From Woeseiaceae bacterium (GTDB lineage Bacteria; Pseudomonadota; Gammaproteobacteria; Steroidobacterales; Woeseiaceae), in the NCBI GenBank assembly GCA_030066075.1, contig JASJCH010000028.1, positions 1 to 48,546 on the forward strand: a DNA stretch of 48,546 bases. Direction: 5' to 3'. Of the stretch, positions 36,172-45,338 are shown one piece after another. The notes under the pieces were generated by a model that worked only from the letters and a program-made list of their open reading frames with translations, ran no database searches and was not told the DNA's origin. Made by a program: the position numbers and the translations under genes. Numbering within the stretch: the stretch's first letter is position 1; the number at the start of each line of letters is the position of its first letter.

Positions 36172-37690
36172 AAGCGTATACCGACTCCTCGAGTTCGCCG
36201 CGCGACTCGAGGTAGAAACGACGCAGCAGGTTTTGCGCGGCACGCAGGCGATATCCCGCGCTGGCGCGCATGTCGGATATCGGTTCGAAGTCGCGCGCAA
36301 AAGCTTTGCAGGCGGCGTCGATTGTTTCCTCGTTCCAGGGTTTGCCCGTGACCGCCGCCTCGCAATTGTGCGCACGGCGGACAGTCGCCGCCATGCCGCC
36401 GCAGGCCATGCGAAACGCCGTGACGGTCTCGCCATCGAGTTCCAGCCGGTAGGCGTTGCACACGGCGGAAATGTCCTGGTCGAAGCGTTTGGACAACTTG
36501 TGGCTGCCGACGATGACGTCGTCGCTCAGCACCGGGATGCGAACGGTCTCGACGAATTCTGCAGCACGCAGGTCCTTCACCTGGTAATCCAGATAGAAGT
36601 CGTCGAGCGAGACTTCGCGGCGGCTGCGGCCACGGCGCAGGACGAGACTGCTGCCCAACACCATCAGTGCCGGCATCGAATCCCCGATGGGCGAGCCGTT
36701 CGCGATGTTGCCGCCGAGGGTGCCCGCGTTGCGAATCGGCGGCGAGGCGAACCGCCAGAACAGTTCATACAGGCCGGGGTAGTTCGCCACGATGACTTCC
36801 ATTGCATCGGCCAGCGTCACGGCGGCGCCGATCTCGATGTGCGAAGCCGTCACGCGCGACTCGTTGAGTTCGGCCACCCGCCCCGTGTAGATAACCGTCT
36901 CCAGTTCGCGATGCTGCTTGGTCACCCACAAGCCGATATCGGTGCCGCCCGCCAGTAGCGTCGCCTCCGGGTGATTCGCGAACAGACCGGCGAGCTCGTC
37001 GGCGGTTAGCGGCGCAAAGAAACTGCGGCCGGCAGCCGCGAACTGCAGGCTCGCCTCACGCTGCAAATCGCGCAGCGCGTCGACACGCACCGCCGGCGGT
37101 TTGAAACGCCCATCCTGCGCCGCCGGTTGTCGCAGCCAGTCGGTGTCGGTTTCGGCATCGTACATTGCCTCGGCGGCCGCAACGATGGGCCGGTAGCCAG
37201 TGCAACGGCACAGGTTCCCGGCCAGCGCGTCATCGATTTCCCGTCGCGTCGGCTTCGGGTTGGTTTTGTAGAGAGTGAACAGCGACATGACGAAACCCGG
37301 CGTGCAGAACCCGCACTGCGAACCGTGGTGGTCGACCATGGCCTGTTGCACCGGGTGCAGGCCGTCTTCACGGGCGAGGCTCTCGACCGTCAGCAGCTCC
37401 TTGCCGTCGAGGGTTGGCAGGAACTGGATGCACGAGTTCACGGGGCGCAGAGTGACGTCATCGCCTTCGGCGTTCAGCTCCAGCAGGACGACCGTGCAGG
37501 CGCCGCAGTCGCCTTCGGCGCAGCCTTCCTTGGTGCCCTTGCGGCCGAGGTCCTCGCGCAGGAACTGCAGCACCGTCCGGGTCGGATCCACGTTGGCGAG
37601 CTCGTAGCGCTCGCCGTCGAGGATAAATCGAATGGTGTTGGACGGTGTGTCGATAGCCGAGACCCCTTGCCGAGTTACGTCAGCTGCCAC
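36158..37690 (-). CDS. xdhA: Xanthine dehydrogenase small subunit (2x[2Fe-2S], FAD)
   Basis: A 510-residue subunit. The plant-type [2Fe-2S] cluster uses the cysteines of EGCAEGDCGACTV (57, 62, 65) and C87. The second cluster uses QCGFCTPGF and LCRCTGYRPI. The FAD domain follows at about residue 190, with LLAGGTDIGLWV and IRNAGTLGGNIANGSPIGD. No ATG is available near the required N-terminus. A GTG at 37690, overlapping the uraH stop by 11 bases, is the best start, so translation is probably coupled. The longer frame upstream lies inside uraH. Confidence 0.94.
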   Translation of the reverse strand: MAADVTRQGVSAIDTPSNTIRFILDGERYELANVDPTRTVLQFLREDLGRKGTKEGCAEGDCGACTVVLLELNAEGDDVTLRPVNSCIQFLPTLDGKELLTVESLAREDGLHPVQQAMVDHHGSQCGFCTPGFVMSLFTLYKTNPKPTRREIDDALAGNLCRCTGYRPIVAAAEAMYDAETDTDWLRQPAAQDGRFKPPAVRVDALRDLQREASLQFAAAGRSFFAPLTADELAGLFANHPEATLLAGGTDIGLWVTKQHRELETVIYTGRVAELNESRVTASHIEIGAAVTLADAMEVIVANYPGLYELFWRFASPPIRNAGTLGGNIANGSPIGDSMPALMVLGSSLVLRRGRSRREVSLDDFYLDYQVKDLRAAEFVETVRIPVLSDDVIVGSHKLSKRFDQDISAVCNAYRLELDGETVTAFRMACGGMAATVRRAHNCEAAVTGKPWNEETIDAACKAFARDFEPISDMRASAGYRLRAAQNLLRRFYLESRGELEESVYAYGRS

Positions 37691-40366: not shown

Positions 40367-40819
40367 ATGATGAAGCGACTTCTTGGATTCTTCGTGACGG
40401 GCATAGCGCTCACCCTGTGCGGCGTTGCGACAGCCGGTGGACACAATGACGTCGAGTTTATTGTCGAACCTGGCGCCGAGGACATGCCGTTCTCGGCTGC
40501 TGTCCGCGTCGGCAACCTGCTGTTCGTCTCGGGCGCGATCGGCTACGACCGCGAAACGCAGTCGCTGGTCGAGGGCGGCATCGGTCCGGAAACGAAGAAG
40601 ACACTCGAAACTATCCAGGCGACGCTCGAAGCCAACGGCTCGTCGATGAACAGCGTCGTCAAGTGCACCGTGTTCCTTGCCGACATCGCCGAGTGGGCGG
40701 CGATGAATGAAGTCTACGTAACCTTCTTCGACAACAAGCCGGCACGCAGCGCGCTCGGCGTTAACGGACTCGCGCTGGGCGCGCGCGTCGAAATCGAGTG
40801 CATCGGGGTCGTCGATTAG
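40367..40819 (+). CDS. Exported RidA/YjgF-family protein
   Basis: A 150-residue RidA-fold protein with a clear signal peptide (MKRLLGFFVTGIALTLCGVATA). RidA proteins hydrolyse reactive enamines and imines and are normally cytoplasmic. The fold is recognisable from AAVRVGNLLFVSGAIGYD, the 'KKTLETIQATLEANG' helix and the C-terminal GARVEIECIGVV. The usual catalytic arginine position near 'R.A' is occupied in KPARSALGVNGL. Two ATGs (40367 and 40370) follow GGAG; the second has better spacing. It lies 11 bases after the GMC gene, which suggests it acts on a product of that enzyme. Confidence 0.85.
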   Translation: MMKRLLGFFVTGIALTLCGVATAGGHNDVEFIVEPGAEDMPFSAAVRVGNLLFVSGAIGYDRETQSLVEGGIGPETKKTLETIQATLEANGSSMNSVVKCTVFLADIAEWAAMNEVYVTFFDNKPARSALGVNGLALGARVEIECIGVVD

Positions 40820-42633
40820 TCTGACGTAGCCAGCGCCTCGGCCCGCGCCGCGAGCGCCTTGACGCGCTTTTCGTCAAGCACGTCGCCCAGGGCGTCGGAG
40901 AGCGTCTCCTTACTGAGCTCGGCGGCCGCATCTTTCCACGCCTCGCCGGCTTCATAGGGCACGCTCTGCAACCGGTTCGGCACGCCCTTGCGGGCGCGGA
41001 AGGCCGAGTCGTGGCCCACCAGCATGAGTTGCCAGAAGTCGAGGCTGTAGAGGATGTCTTCGCCGGTGCGCCCCTCGTTGTAGATCAGCGCGTCGAACAC
41101 GAACATGGCGTTCCATTGTTCCTCGAGGTCACACCAGGCCGCTCCGCCGCTGCGCTCCTCCTGGCGCTGCAGCTCGTCAATGAAGTTCTTCGGCCGGAAA
41201 CGCAGCGACCCCTCGTCACCGTCGATCTCGCGGACGACCGCGACGGGCACCATCTCCAGGTTGATCAGCGTGTCCAGCCGGTAGGCAGCGACTTCGGGGT
41301 AGAACCCACGGCCCTTGCGTTTGTCGAAGACGGCCTCCAGCGTCGCGGCGCCATCGCTCACGGTCACGATATCCTCGCCGCTCTCTGTTTCGCGCCGCGC
41401 CACGACCTCACCACCGGCCAGCAGCGATTCGATCTGGCTGGAGCTCAGCCGGCCCTGCGGTCGCGTGCCCACGCTGCGCGGGCGGCGCTTGGCCGCGTTT
41501 ATCGTGCCGTCCTGGTTGACGGCGGACACGCCGTCGGCATCGATAACCAGCGCGTTTGCGCTGCCGCCGTAGTAATTGTTCAGCATGCCCGTGTCGATCT
41601 GGATGATCTTGCCGTCGAGGCGCTCCAGCACCTGCCGGCCCGGGGTGGGCGTGTGGCCGATAACGACGCGGTCAGCGCCGATCGCCTCGAGCGCGCCAGC
41701 GAGTTTGTCATCCTCGATCAACTCGCTGCAGACCACGTTGCCGCGATACCAGAGCGGACCGTCGAGGGCGTTCAGGCTCGAACCATTGAGTTTCTTTACG
41801 GCCTCGATTGACTGCAATACGTCGACGCTCGTATCGAGGCCCGGCATGTGCCGGGCAAGGATGGCCGGATGGTCGTGGAAGTTATCGGTCGGCAGGAGCA
41901 CTCCGGCCATGTACAGGCGTTCGACATGACGGACGTAATCACCCATCTCACCGATCAGCCGGCCGTTGACGCCCTGCAGTCCGATCTGCTCGACCATTGG
42001 TGACAGCCCGCCGTGCACAAACGCCGTGCGGTTGATCACCACGATGGCCGGCTTGGAGAGCAGCCATTCACCGTACTTGCCTTCACTCGAGAAGGCCCGG
42101 CGGTGCGCGAAATAGCCCGCCGGGAATTTCTGCCTGAACACGGTGGCCAGGGCCTCCGGGGCCTGGTCCGCAGGGGCCCGCTGCTGCGCGTACGCGGCGA
42201 ACCAGCGTTCCCGTTCCTCGGGCTGTTCCTCGTCGGCGAATGCCGCGTACTCCCAGGCCGAGACGTAGCGCATGTCGCCCATCAGGTTCATTGCCTCGTG
42301 GTTGCCGATGAGAACGTGCACCCGGCCTCCGGCCGCCTCGGCCTCACCCTCGAGCTGCATCAGCAGGTCCATGGCGGGTCGCGAATCGGGGCCCCGGTCG
42401 AGGAGATCGCCCACGATGACGAGATGAGCGTCGCCGGCGACCCAGGACAGGTCCGCGTCGACCACCTCGGCAGACTGCATCGCCTCGACCATCGCGTCGT
42501 AGGCGCCATGGACGTCGGCGATCGCGACGATTCGGGATACGCCGTCGAACTGCCACTCCGAGGCCCTTGCCGGCGCGACGCTCAGCGCGAACCCGAGCAG
42601 CAGTAACGTGGTCTTGATCAGGGCCTTATGCAA
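40816..42633 (-). CDS. Secreted metallophosphoesterase fused to a degenerate kinase-like domain
   Basis: A 605-residue protein. A signal peptide (KTTLLLLGFALSVAPARA) precedes a calcineurin-like phosphoesterase domain (about 30-355). All metal motifs are present: ADVHG, GDLLDRGPDS, IGNHEAMN, FVHGGLSP and GHTPTPG. GNHEAMN recalls Shewanella-like phosphatases. The C-terminal part (about 395-590) resembles atypical kinases of the FAM20/HipA type: FYPEVAAYRLDTLINLEMVP, then FVFDALIYNEGRTGEDILY and LMLVGHDSAFR. Where active relatives have Asp-Arg-x3-Asn and a metal-binding Asp, this protein has GRTGED and VGHD, so the kinase is probably dead or altered. The start is a TTG at 42633, chosen for AGGA 10 bases upstream and the signal peptide. 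Confidence 0.75.
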   Translation of the reverse strand: MHKALIKTTLLLLGFALSVAPARASEWQFDGVSRIVAIADVHGAYDAMVEAMQSAEVVDADLSWVAGDAHLVIVGDLLDRGPDSRPAMDLLMQLEGEAEAAGGRVHVLIGNHEAMNLMGDMRYVSAWEYAAFADEEQPEERERWFAAYAQQRAPADQAPEALATVFRQKFPAGYFAHRRAFSSEGKYGEWLLSKPAIVVINRTAFVHGGLSPMVEQIGLQGVNGRLIGEMGDYVRHVERLYMAGVLLPTDNFHDHPAILARHMPGLDTSVDVLQSIEAVKKLNGSSLNALDGPLWYRGNVVCSELIEDDKLAGALEAIGADRVVIGHTPTPGRQVLERLDGKIIQIDTGMLNNYYGGSANALVIDADGVSAVNQDGTINAAKRRPRSVGTRPQGRLSSSQIESLLAGGEVVARRETESGEDIVTVSDGAATLEAVFDKRKGRGFYPEVAAYRLDTLINLEMVPVAVVREIDGDEGSLRFRPKNFIDELQRQEERSGGAAWCDLEEQWNAMFVFDALIYNEGRTGEDILYSLDFWQLMLVGHDSAFRARKGVPNRLQSVPYEAGEAWKDAAAELSKETLSDALGDVLDEKRVKALAARAEALATSD

Positions 42634-42693
42634 ACCGGATGATTCCTGACTAGAATGGCGGCAGCCGCTGGAACTGCCCGCCAAGAGGTTGTA

Positions 42694-43743
42694 ATGGTAT
42701 ACGGACATTGGACCCTGACTATTGTAGCGCTGTTCCTGGCCGCAAGCGCGGCAAATGCCGAGGATGTCAGCGACTACGATCCGCTATTCCTGAGCCAGGA
42801 CACGCTCGAGATCGATGTCGAGGGCCCGTTCGCGTTCCTGGCCCGTGAACGTCCCGACGAAGAGGAAGCCCCGGGCAAGCTCAGGTACGTCAATGCCGAC
42901 GGGGAAACCACCGAGTTCGACGTGCAGATCCGTGCCCGCGGCAACTGGCGCCGCAATCCCGAGATCTGCAGGTTCCCGCCGCTGAGGATCAATTTCAGGA
43001 AGTCCCAGACCGACGACACACTGTTCCACAAGCAGGACAAGATCAAGCTGGTCACGCACTGCAATAACAACAACCGCTATGCGCAGGCGGTTATCAGCGA
43101 GTACCTGGCCTATCGCATCTTCAATATTCTCACCGACTACAGCTATCGGGTCCGGCTGGTCAACATGACCTACGTCTACACCGACCGGAACGAGACCACC
43201 AACTCCTTCGCCGTCTTCATCGAGCACAAGGATCGGCTTGGCAAGCGCATAGACGGTGAACCGGTCGAGACGGAACGCGTAGCCGTCGGTTCGATCTTCC
43301 CGGAGAACCTGAACCTCGCGTCGATGTTCCAGTATTTCATCGGCAACACCGATTTCTCGCCGATTGCCACAGCGCCCGACGAGGACTGCTGCCACAACCA
43401 GGCGCTGTTCACGAGCGAAGAGGGCCCCTATCGCACGATCCCGTTCGATTTCGACCAGACCGGGCTCGTCGATGCGAAACACGCGGCGCCGAACCCGCGT
43501 TTCGGCATTCCCGATGTCAAGGTGCGCCTGTATCGTGGGCGCTGCGTCAATAACGAGTTGCTGCCAGAGACGCTGCAGCGTTTTCGTGACAAGCGCGAGG
43601 AGATCGAAGCGCTCATCGAGAACCAGGCGGAACTGACGTCGACGACCCGGCGCAACCTGCTCAGGTACGTGGAGTCTTTCTACGACACCATCGACAACCC
43701 GAGGCGGGTTCAGCAGCGTATCGTGGACGACTGTCTCGGTTGA
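42694..43743 (+). CDS. Secreted CotH-kinase-like protein of unnamed family
   Basis: A 349-residue protein with a signal peptide (residues 1-22, ending ANA). The rest fits the CotH/atypical kinase pattern: an RGNW motif at 82-85, a possible ATP-lysine in DKIKLVTHC (about 118), a glutamate helix in VISEYLAYRIFN (about 136), QYFIGNTDFS with D220, and PFDFDQTGLV with D252 and D254 as metal ligands. Four or more cysteines (92, 123, 232, 233, 284) could form disulfides. I recognise no named family. The ATG at 42694 has GAGG 8 bases upstream. It is divergent from the phosphoesterase gene and convergent by one base with the hydrolase-like gene. Confidence 0.65.
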   Translation: MVYGHWTLTIVALFLAASAANAEDVSDYDPLFLSQDTLEIDVEGPFAFLARERPDEEEAPGKLRYVNADGETTEFDVQIRARGNWRRNPEICRFPPLRINFRKSQTDDTLFHKQDKIKLVTHCNNNNRYAQAVISEYLAYRIFNILTDYSYRVRLVNMTYVYTDRNETTNSFAVFIEHKDRLGKRIDGEPVETERVAVGSIFPENLNLASMFQYFIGNTDFSPIATAPDEDCCHNQALFTSEEGPYRTIPFDFDQTGLVDAKHAAPNPRFGIPDVKVRLYRGRCVNNELLPETLQRFRDKREEIEALIENQAELTSTTRRNLLRYVESFYDTIDNPRRVQQRIVDDCLG

Positions 43744-43744
43744 A

Positions 43745-44701
43745 TCAGGACTGCAGGTCTTCCGTCAGCCAGTCGTGGACGATCTTGCTGACGCGGGGGT
43801 GGATGTAATAGCCCACCGAGCTATGCGGGTTTGACCTGCCGTAGCGCACCGCCAGGTTGTAGATACGATAATCCTGCACGGAGCTGACCAGGCGCTGGTG
43901 TAGCATTTTCTTGAAATCATCGGCCAGCGTGTTGTCGTGGCAGGTGTAGTCGTCCTCCGCCGCGACGTTGTACCAGGAAATGACATTGGTCGGGAACCGC
44001 GCTTCGGGTTGTTGCTCGGCGCCCTTCAGGTATTTGCGGATGTGCATGTCGCCCAGCGGCGCGCCGAGCGTCACCCACGCCTCGACCTTGCGCTTGCCGT
44101 AGCGTGGCGCAAACTCCTCGTCGTGCGATAACTCCCAGAGCACGTCATAAGCCACGAGGCAACCGAGGCCGTGCGACATCAGCAGTACCCTGCCGTCCCG
44201 GTCCAGCGCCTCGCACAGCTTGGCGCGCACGCGTTCACGCACCCTGTCGGCGAAATCAGACTTACCCGTCAGGTACTCGGCCGAATCCTTCGAGACGAGG
44301 CGCACCAGGGGCATCGTCATGCCGATAGCGCCCAGCAGCGGCGCCAGCATATCGGCGGCAAACTCGCGCACGGCCGATTTCCCGGGCACCCGGTCGTACT
44401 GGCGGATGCTGAACTTCTTGCGCGGCTCAATCTGGCGCAACGCGGCATGCGCGGCGCGGCGATCGCCGATGTCCAGCCTGGCGTCGTAGCGCTTACCGTG
44501 CTCCTCGAGGAACGCATTGGTGAGATCGCCGTAGTACGCCAGGTCTACCTGTGCATCCTCGAGAAGCTGCAGTTGCTCCGGGTAATCCCGCCGGACACCA
44601 GCGCGCAGTGCACGGTACGAGATGTCCAGCAAGTCCTCCTCGAGAGGCTTGAAGTCCCGCCCGTGCACCATAACGATGCTGCAATCCCTACTGGTACTCA
44701 T
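43745..44701 (-). CDS. Alpha/beta-hydrolase-like protein without a nucleophile serine
   Basis: A 318-residue protein, cytoplasmic by absence of a signal. It opens SIVMVHGRDFKPLEED, as in a family of lipase-like hydrolases. The nucleophile elbow reads LLMSHGLGCLVAYDVL: glycine stands where GHSxG enzymes have serine. The later segments WVTLGAPLGD, DDYTCHDNTLADDF and the C-terminal SSVGYYIHPRV keep the rest of the fold. It may be non-catalytic or use another residue. The start at 44701 overlaps the DUF4956 gene by 14 bases, so the two are coupled. Confidence 0.65.
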   Translation of the reverse strand: MSTSRDCSIVMVHGRDFKPLEEDLLDISYRALRAGVRRDYPEQLQLLEDAQVDLAYYGDLTNAFLEEHGKRYDARLDIGDRRAAHAALRQIEPRKKFSIRQYDRVPGKSAVREFAADMLAPLLGAIGMTMPLVRLVSKDSAEYLTGKSDFADRVRERVRAKLCEALDRDGRVLLMSHGLGCLVAYDVLWELSHDEEFAPRYGKRKVEAWVTLGAPLGDMHIRKYLKGAEQQPEARFPTNVISWYNVAAEDDYTCHDNTLADDFKKMLHQRLVSSVQDYRIYNLAVRYGRSNPHSSVGYYIHPRVSKIVHDWLTEDLQS

Positions 44702-45338
44702 CCTCGCCTGCATCCCTGCGCGTCATCATGGTCAGGAAGCGCCCTGATAGTGTCTTCCCGTACTCGAGCCGCCAGATGGCCAGCGTGGCGACAACGAAGG
44801 CAAACGATATGACCGTCGCAACCCCGAGCGCGCTGATGCCGGCGCCCAGCCCGATCGCGATAGCCACGAAAATGTACATGGCGTCAGATGGCTGCTTCAA
44901 CGCAAACCTGAAGCGAACGGCGGCGACGATTCCGGCCAGGCTGAACGCGAGCGCGAGGCTGTTGAGCACAATCATCGAGATACCCGTCACGACGACCGGC
45001 AGAATCATGATCGTCTGCACGAATGACTGGTCGATGCGCCGCGAGCGGCTCGTTATGAAGTAGGCCCAGCTGACCGGGATCGTCATGATGATGGCGCCAA
45101 CGCTGGCGACAGCCAGTTTCACCATGCCGTGGGGTGTCCGCACGGTACGGTCGACGCTCGAGTAGATCGGCTCAAAACCGTCGACATCGGCCTGTGCCAG
45201 GAACTCGAGGCCACCGATGGGAAAGTACGGATTCAGTCCCGGATAACGAGCCAACAGGTACCACATAGTCCCGACCCAGAACCCGTAGTACATCACAATC
45301 AGCGTCAGCGGAATCCCCAGTCCACCCGATCTTCGCAC
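44688..45338 (-). CDS. DUF4956 membrane protein
   Basis: A 216-residue inner-membrane protein with about five hydrophobic helices. The family core is clear: LNSLALAFSLAGIVAAVRFRFALKQ in two overlapping parts, then PSDAMYIFVAIAIGLGAG. The function of DUF4956 is unknown. In many bacteria it lies beside VTC-type polyphosphate polymerase domains and CotH proteins. Here a CotH-like gene is nearby, but no VTC domain is in the window. The start is a GTG at 45338 with GGAG 7-8 bases upstream. Confidence 0.85.
   Translation of the reverse strand: MRRSGGLGIPLTLIVMYYGFWVGTMWYLLARYPGLNPYFPIGGLEFLAQADVDGFEPIYSSVDRTVRTPHGMVKLAVASVGAIIMTIPVSWAYFITSRSRRIDQSFVQTIMILPVVVTGISMIVLNSLALAFSLAGIVAAVRFRFALKQPSDAMYIFVAIAIGLGAGISALGVATVISFAFVVATLAIWRLEYGKTLSGRFLTMMTRRDAGEDEYQ

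Follow-up and report, generated by a model that had tools for sequence, protein, structure and literature searches.

A gene cassette in a Woeseiaceae bacterium combines a divergent, exported, predicted CotH-fold kinase (which we denote C) with a Shewanella-like (Shelph) PPP phosphatase (P) whose C-terminal part has a predicted kinase fold. We find that this kinase-fold domain is degenerate in all 53 copies of P that adjoin C, whereas intact motifs occur in 17 unlinked copies. Across genomes, the core of the cassette is C with P and C with D, a DUF4956 protein. P and C very probably work together, and on balance we favour the reading that the cassette is an extracytoplasmic reversible-phosphorylation module. 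To our knowledge, few phosphorylation writer/eraser systems exist outside the bacterial cytoplasm, and CotH and DUF4956, although widespread, are little understood in function. In the open-access literature (subscription papers lay outside the scope of the search) we found no paper describing a CotH–Shelph pair.

The cassette lies on a 48,546-nucleotide stretch of DNA (the window), which is one contig of a 2.58-Mb genome that is 79.7% complete. All four open reading frames that an initial annotation had grouped here as a candidate envelope system, namely P, C, a hydrolase-like gene (H) and D, were recovered at the positions that it gave (Table 1). P starts with TTG, since an alternative ATG upstream at 42708 would run into the start of C; C starts with ATG, preceded by AGAGG. 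P and C are divergent, C and H are convergent, and the 3′ end of D overlaps the start of H on the same strand, so that the genes form a compact cluster and not a single operon. The head-to-head order of P and C is also present in relatives. By eye, Sec-type signal peptides can be recognized in P and C, and none in H. Between positions 37680 and 46436, genes for HIU hydrolase, gluconate-dehydrogenase subunit 3, GMC oxidoreductase, RidA and PfkB are conserved flanks within the window's own family, a synteny that is lineage-specific. A search for a candidate substrate gene among the conserved neighbours returned only such lineage-specific synteny (PfkB, RidA, GMC, HIU hydrolase and xanthine dehydrogenase). 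Identity as a defence system was rejected, as PADLOC gave no match.

Table 1 Features of the cassette, in positions of the window
Feature	Position	Strand	Description
P, whole gene	40816..42633	-	N-terminal signal peptide and Shewanella-like (Shelph) PPP phosphatase domain, about residues 26-385
P, C-terminal part	40819..41487	-	Predicted FAM20/PI4KII-fold pseudokinase domain (AF2 model, Foldseek, VIA, profile)
P/C divergent intergenic region	42634..42693	.	60 bp separating the two start codons
C	42694..43743	+	Exported CotH-fold kinase (predicted; AF2 model, VIA, invariant columns, motif comparison)
H	43745..44713	-	Alpha/beta-hydrolase-like; no signal peptide; Gly in place of the nucleophile Ser (SHGLG)
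D	44688..45338	-	DUF4956 integral membrane protein (Pfam, hydrophobic segments)

P retains the PPP metal-site motifs DVHG40, GDLLDRG75, GNHE110, HGG207 and GHTP326, all kept in homologues, and matches Pfam Metallophos at 1.4e-10 and the solved Shewanella phosphatases 2z72, 1v73 and 2zbm by phmmer (4.7e-32). The metal motifs and Shelph-type sequence place P in the described Shelph/SLP group of PPP phosphatases (PMC535813). Unlike the group members 1v73 and 2z72, which it matches strongly in sequence, P carries a fused kinase-fold domain and has a linked kinase gene; in copies from Bacteroidota, ankyrin repeats take the place of that domain. An AF2 model of the C-terminal roughly 220 residues, built from 23 sequences (pLDDT 91.1), matches PI4KII (Foldseek 1.7e-7; VIA Z 15.7) and Fam20 structures (VIA Z 14.6-15.5). 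A profile of the domain reaches FAM20A by sequence (5.3e-5) with three blocks matching, and the fold is accompanied by the E-AAY-LDR block. An active FAM20-type kinase would have both a catalytic Asp and a DFG-like Asp; in the P of the window the former is Gly (NEGR), as is the latter, the second metal-binding Asp (VGH). On this model, the domain is a pseudokinase, with a kinase fold from which both catalytic Asp residues are gone. The proposal that P is a secreted phosphatase–kinase fusion with a pseudokinase part is thus borne out.

C has no counterpart among Pfam models: a scan matched none, and at the gathering score PF08757 (CotH) was matched neither by C nor anywhere in the window's genome. 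No solved structure matched C directly by sequence, and Foldseek with the AF2 model of C (pLDDT 93.4) gave weak matches only, none below E 0.001. VIA re-alignment of the model, however, matched Bacillus cereus CotH (5jd9) at Z 19.7 over 267 residues (rmsd 3.4), the next family scoring 12.9, so the silence of Foldseek is not evidence. PF08757 was matched at E ≤ 1 by 16 of 60 relatives of C (best 1.1e-6), and hhalign against four CotH proteins aligned the N-lobe alone (E 7e-4, probability 26%). The motifs of C comprise N218-x-D220, H234-N235, D252-x-D254, K118 and E136, together with six cysteines. Among the positions invariant in 60 homologues are R82, G83, E136, E177, N218, D220, H234, N235, D252 and D254, as well as C92, C123, C284 and C347; K118 is nearly so. 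Where B. cereus CotH reads NFD...HN...PWDYD, C reads NTD...HN...PFDFD, and the catalytic Asp, the Asn and the second Asp of CotH map by motif to D220, N235 and D252. The activity of Bacillus subtilis CotH requires D228 and D251 (PMC7821199). Because the fold match and the catalytic motifs are both present, we call C CotH-like, a predicted kinase that is CotH-like by modelled fold and by motif and not a PF08757 member by score; the initial annotation had likewise named it a secreted CotH-like kinase. C shares its fold and its N-x-D, H-N and D-x-D positions with the CotH spore-coat kinases (5jd9, 5jda) but, unlike them, is exported by a Gram-negative bacterium without a spore context, has extra cysteines with a CCHN insert and has a phosphatase partner.

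In vertebrates, the secreted pseudokinase FAM20A activates the kinase FAM20C (PMC7948968). By analogy, the cassette resembles this pair in layout: the gene for a predicted pseudokinase, which matches FAM20A by profile and by fold, adjoins that for a FAM20C-like (CotH) kinase, both proteins being predicted to lie outside the cytoplasm. In contrast to FAM20A, which retains DRHH in its catalytic loop, P has lost both Asp residues; its putative pseudokinase is also bacterial and fused to a phosphatase.

The association of these genes extends well beyond the window. C is present in 25 of the 117 genomes searched in the order and has P within 6 kb in 20 of them and D in 19. By our estimate, two genes placed at random in genomes of 3.3 Mb would lie within 6 kb of each other in about 0.1 genomes, which the observed linkage of C and P far exceeds. 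Cassette-type H adjoins C in 13 genomes by our own count over the same 117. A retrieval by C alone, from a separate collection of named records, yielded 80 C loci, of which 50 are flanked on each side by 3.5 kb or more; 25 of these 50 have P, 29 have D and 18 (about 36%) have no partner, suggesting that C can act alone or with distant partners. The pairing recurs in rearranged form in Alphaproteobacteria, in Gemmatimonadota (C–D only) and in Bacteroidota (C–P only), and on the tree of C, linkage to P is found on either side of the midpoint root. The order in the window's genus is D>H> <C P>; in other lineages P, D, the gene for a propeller protein and H lie on one strand, facing C, and a third arrangement is C> <D P>. 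Qipengyuania and Erythrobacter have P-C-D with a short, phosphatase-only P, and in Bacteroidota C adjoins an exported fusion of ankyrin repeats and a Shelph phosphatase (L191:5518-7155, L193:6033-7805, L197:2157-3761, L212:9076-10701). Such persistence of the P–C and C–D adjacency through rearrangement is strong evidence for shared function. Searches at class level, over 274 sampled genomes of the class, showed the full system to be nearly restricted to this order.

The expected co-occurrence of homologues was thus found, and the four-gene unit originally proposed stands in its core, C with P and C with D. H, by contrast, occurs only in the lineage of the window and in near relatives, and a fifth gene, encoding a secreted SdiA-regulated/phytase-like propeller, joins the cassette in several lineages, lying between H and D in several and adjoining D or C in others. 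D matches DUF4956 (PF16316) at 9.7e-10 (38.9 bits against a cut-off of 30.6) and has at least three strong hydrophobic membrane segments, in agreement with its assignment as a membrane protein. H had been described as lacking its nucleophile, and does read SHGLG in place of GxSxG. All readable copies linked to the cassette have Gly (29 rows) or Cys (4 rows) at the nucleophile position, never Ser, counted over rows that include a few duplicate genomes; Ser is seen only in unlinked homologues. This loss, which tracks cassette membership, suggests that H probably serves a structural or sensing function. Sequences in the PDB offered nothing convincing for H, and one Ser-bearing relative (L126) has weak Pfam matches to LCAT, Abhydrolase_6, PGAP1 and DUF676.

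The link between C and the state of the kinase-fold domain of P emerged from 346 genomes of the order, from which we gathered P kinase domains at 102 distinct loci, inspecting the unlinked ones one by one. At the 53 loci adjoining C, 50 domains are without both Asp residues, three keep one and none is intact. Another 17 loci, none of them beside C, keep the complete motif (N-x-D-R-x-x-x-N and I-D-H or I-D-Q). Intact copies have a TLC ATP/ADP transporter as neighbour in 8 cases and an OmpA-family neighbour in 9, one having both, so that either neighbour accompanies 16 of the 17 intact copies against 0 of the 53 C-linked ones (28 of those 53 loci being short); four members of the TLC group were tested, all scoring above the PF03219 cut-off. 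A nucleotide transporter beside intact copies would make sense if a kinase outside the cytoplasm depends on nucleotide, in which case the cassette would be supplied in another way. On this sequence evidence, the intact homologues are candidate bifunctional periplasmic kinase-phosphatases; the intact FAM20/HipA-type kinase motif with a Shelph fusion was seen at L295, L297, L298, L300, L301, L303-L308, L310, L311 and L315-L317. About three changes on the tree of P suffice for each trait, kinase intactness and linkage to C, so the split between intact and linked copies is not statistically independent, and the independent pairs are too few for a sign test or independent contrasts of pseudokinase against C-linkage. 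The direction of change, on a tree without an outgroup root, would be from active kinase to pseudokinase. The best reading of the series is that an active phosphatase–kinase fusion was replaced by a split system made up of a CotH kinase, a phosphatase that opposes it and a pseudokinase with a regulatory role, with few independent events behind this step.

The presence of a kinase fold in both the C-terminal part of P and C, as the initial annotation had anticipated, together with the pseudokinase, the lost nucleophile of H and the co-occurrence of homologues, makes a phosphorylation/dephosphorylation module the best reading of the cassette. From the linkage, the folds, the catalytic residues kept or lost and the neighbours of the intact copies we infer, with somewhat more confidence than doubt, the activities, the substrate, which way regulation runs and what D and H do. 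The exported kinase C would phosphorylate a substrate that is exported or resides in the envelope. Acting against it, the metal-dependent phosphatase in the Shelph domain of P would reverse this modification. The C-terminal domain of P would derive from an active FAM20-type kinase, of the kind still intact in homologues without an adjacent C, and most likely docks, activates or positions C, as FAM20A does for FAM20C. D would be an inner-membrane partner of CotH-type kinases that may anchor C or provide the phosphoryl donor. H, probably cytoplasmic, may be without catalytic activity and regulate from that compartment as a partner or sensor with a hydrolase fold, a location at odds with a module that is periplasmic throughout. 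A fuller scenario, which we advance only tentatively, is that one bifunctional protein, an active FAM20-type kinase and PPP phosphatase fed by TLC, developed into a split form, where catalysis falls to the CotH kinase, the fused domain is an allosteric pseudokinase and DUF4956 serves donor supply. If so, the split form would be a bacterial counterpart of the FAM20A–FAM20C pair with a built-in eraser. The module offers a natural pairing of CotH with a phosphatase, lets the role of DUF4956 as a partner be tested and allows comparison along a series that runs from an active fused kinase to a pseudokinase; its compact form in cultured Qipengyuania and Erythrobacter makes the ATP source and the targets of such kinases directly testable.

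Alternatively, C might transfer a group other than phosphate, such as AMP or glutamate, to protein, or phosphorylate a lipid, glycan or small molecule, P removing or processing the product. The sequence divergence of C, which has no Pfam match of its own, would allow this, as would the sugar and lipid kinases in the FAM20/PI4K/CotH superfamily (seen among the VIA matches), the glutamylating pseudokinases of the same superfamily (PMC6858067) and the broad substrates on which bacterial PPP phosphatases can act (PMC535813). However, C keeps all the catalytic D, N and D positions of CotH, and pairing with a protein-phosphatase-like Shelph domain matches protein phosphorylation most simply, leaving this alternative rather unlikely.

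The polyphosphate or envelope-polymer pathway that had also been suggested, akin to CotH–VTC–DUF4956 cassettes, is improbable. DUF4956 is common to such cassettes of the same order and to pel loci, including Gram-positive pel clusters, in which CotH/DUF4956(/VTC) are accessory genes (PMC7112168). In our survey of 117 genomes, however, VTC (PF09359) was found neither in the window's genome, at its 79.7% completeness, nor beside the fetched P–C cassettes scanned, and the P–C linkage holds across phyla without it; on these grounds we rejected a polyphosphate role. Six of the 117 genomes have VTC at other loci, mostly accompanied by classic CotH and/or DUF4956. Since DUF4956 accompanies classic CotH genes as well as pel loci, it seems to partner CotH-type kinases generally and not polyphosphate synthesis alone. 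The P–C cassette shares with these cassettes a DUF4956 gene adjoining a CotH-type kinase, and differs in having a Shelph phosphatase where VTC would stand and a kinase of a different, divergent branch. Five loci of the same order (L228, L229, L230, L231, L232) hold classic CotH and DUF4956, four of them also with VTC, and at L228, L229 and L232 the catalytic N-x-D motif of CotH seems missing in a rough alignment. Another locus (L233:3938-9539) has VTC, outer-membrane-efflux-like, HlyD-like, DUF4956 and sulfatase-like genes in series, without CotH.

A role in phosphate acquisition, with P an ordinary scavenging phosphatase and C its non-catalytic partner, would suit the resemblance of the propeller to phytase-like proteins and the paralogues of P that adjoin TonB-dependent receptors. 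Yet the full kinase motif set of C is strongly conserved and unlinked homologues of P retain an intact kinase domain, and we give this role little credence. In four genomes the paralogue (P2) lies beside the receptor (L136:6046-11263, L137:3141-8368, L138:6310-11096, L139:6119-10946); the P2 group has lost the catalytic Asp though C is absent nearby, which calls for caution in tying that loss to C, but these copies, nested next to a C-linked copy, may descend from one. That the neighbourhood reflects chance or mere synteny is very improbable: PfkB, RidA, GMC and urate genes are also conserved neighbours within the window's family, but the P–C and C–D adjacency outlasts rearrangement where those neighbours are gone.

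The window's genome encodes a second copy of C (L002:1483-2517; 45% identity), which, with neither P nor D nearby, sits between genes for a sigma-54-type regulator and an ion-channel-like protein. The closest relative of C in named records, at 69% identity, is also from a Woeseiaceae bacterium.
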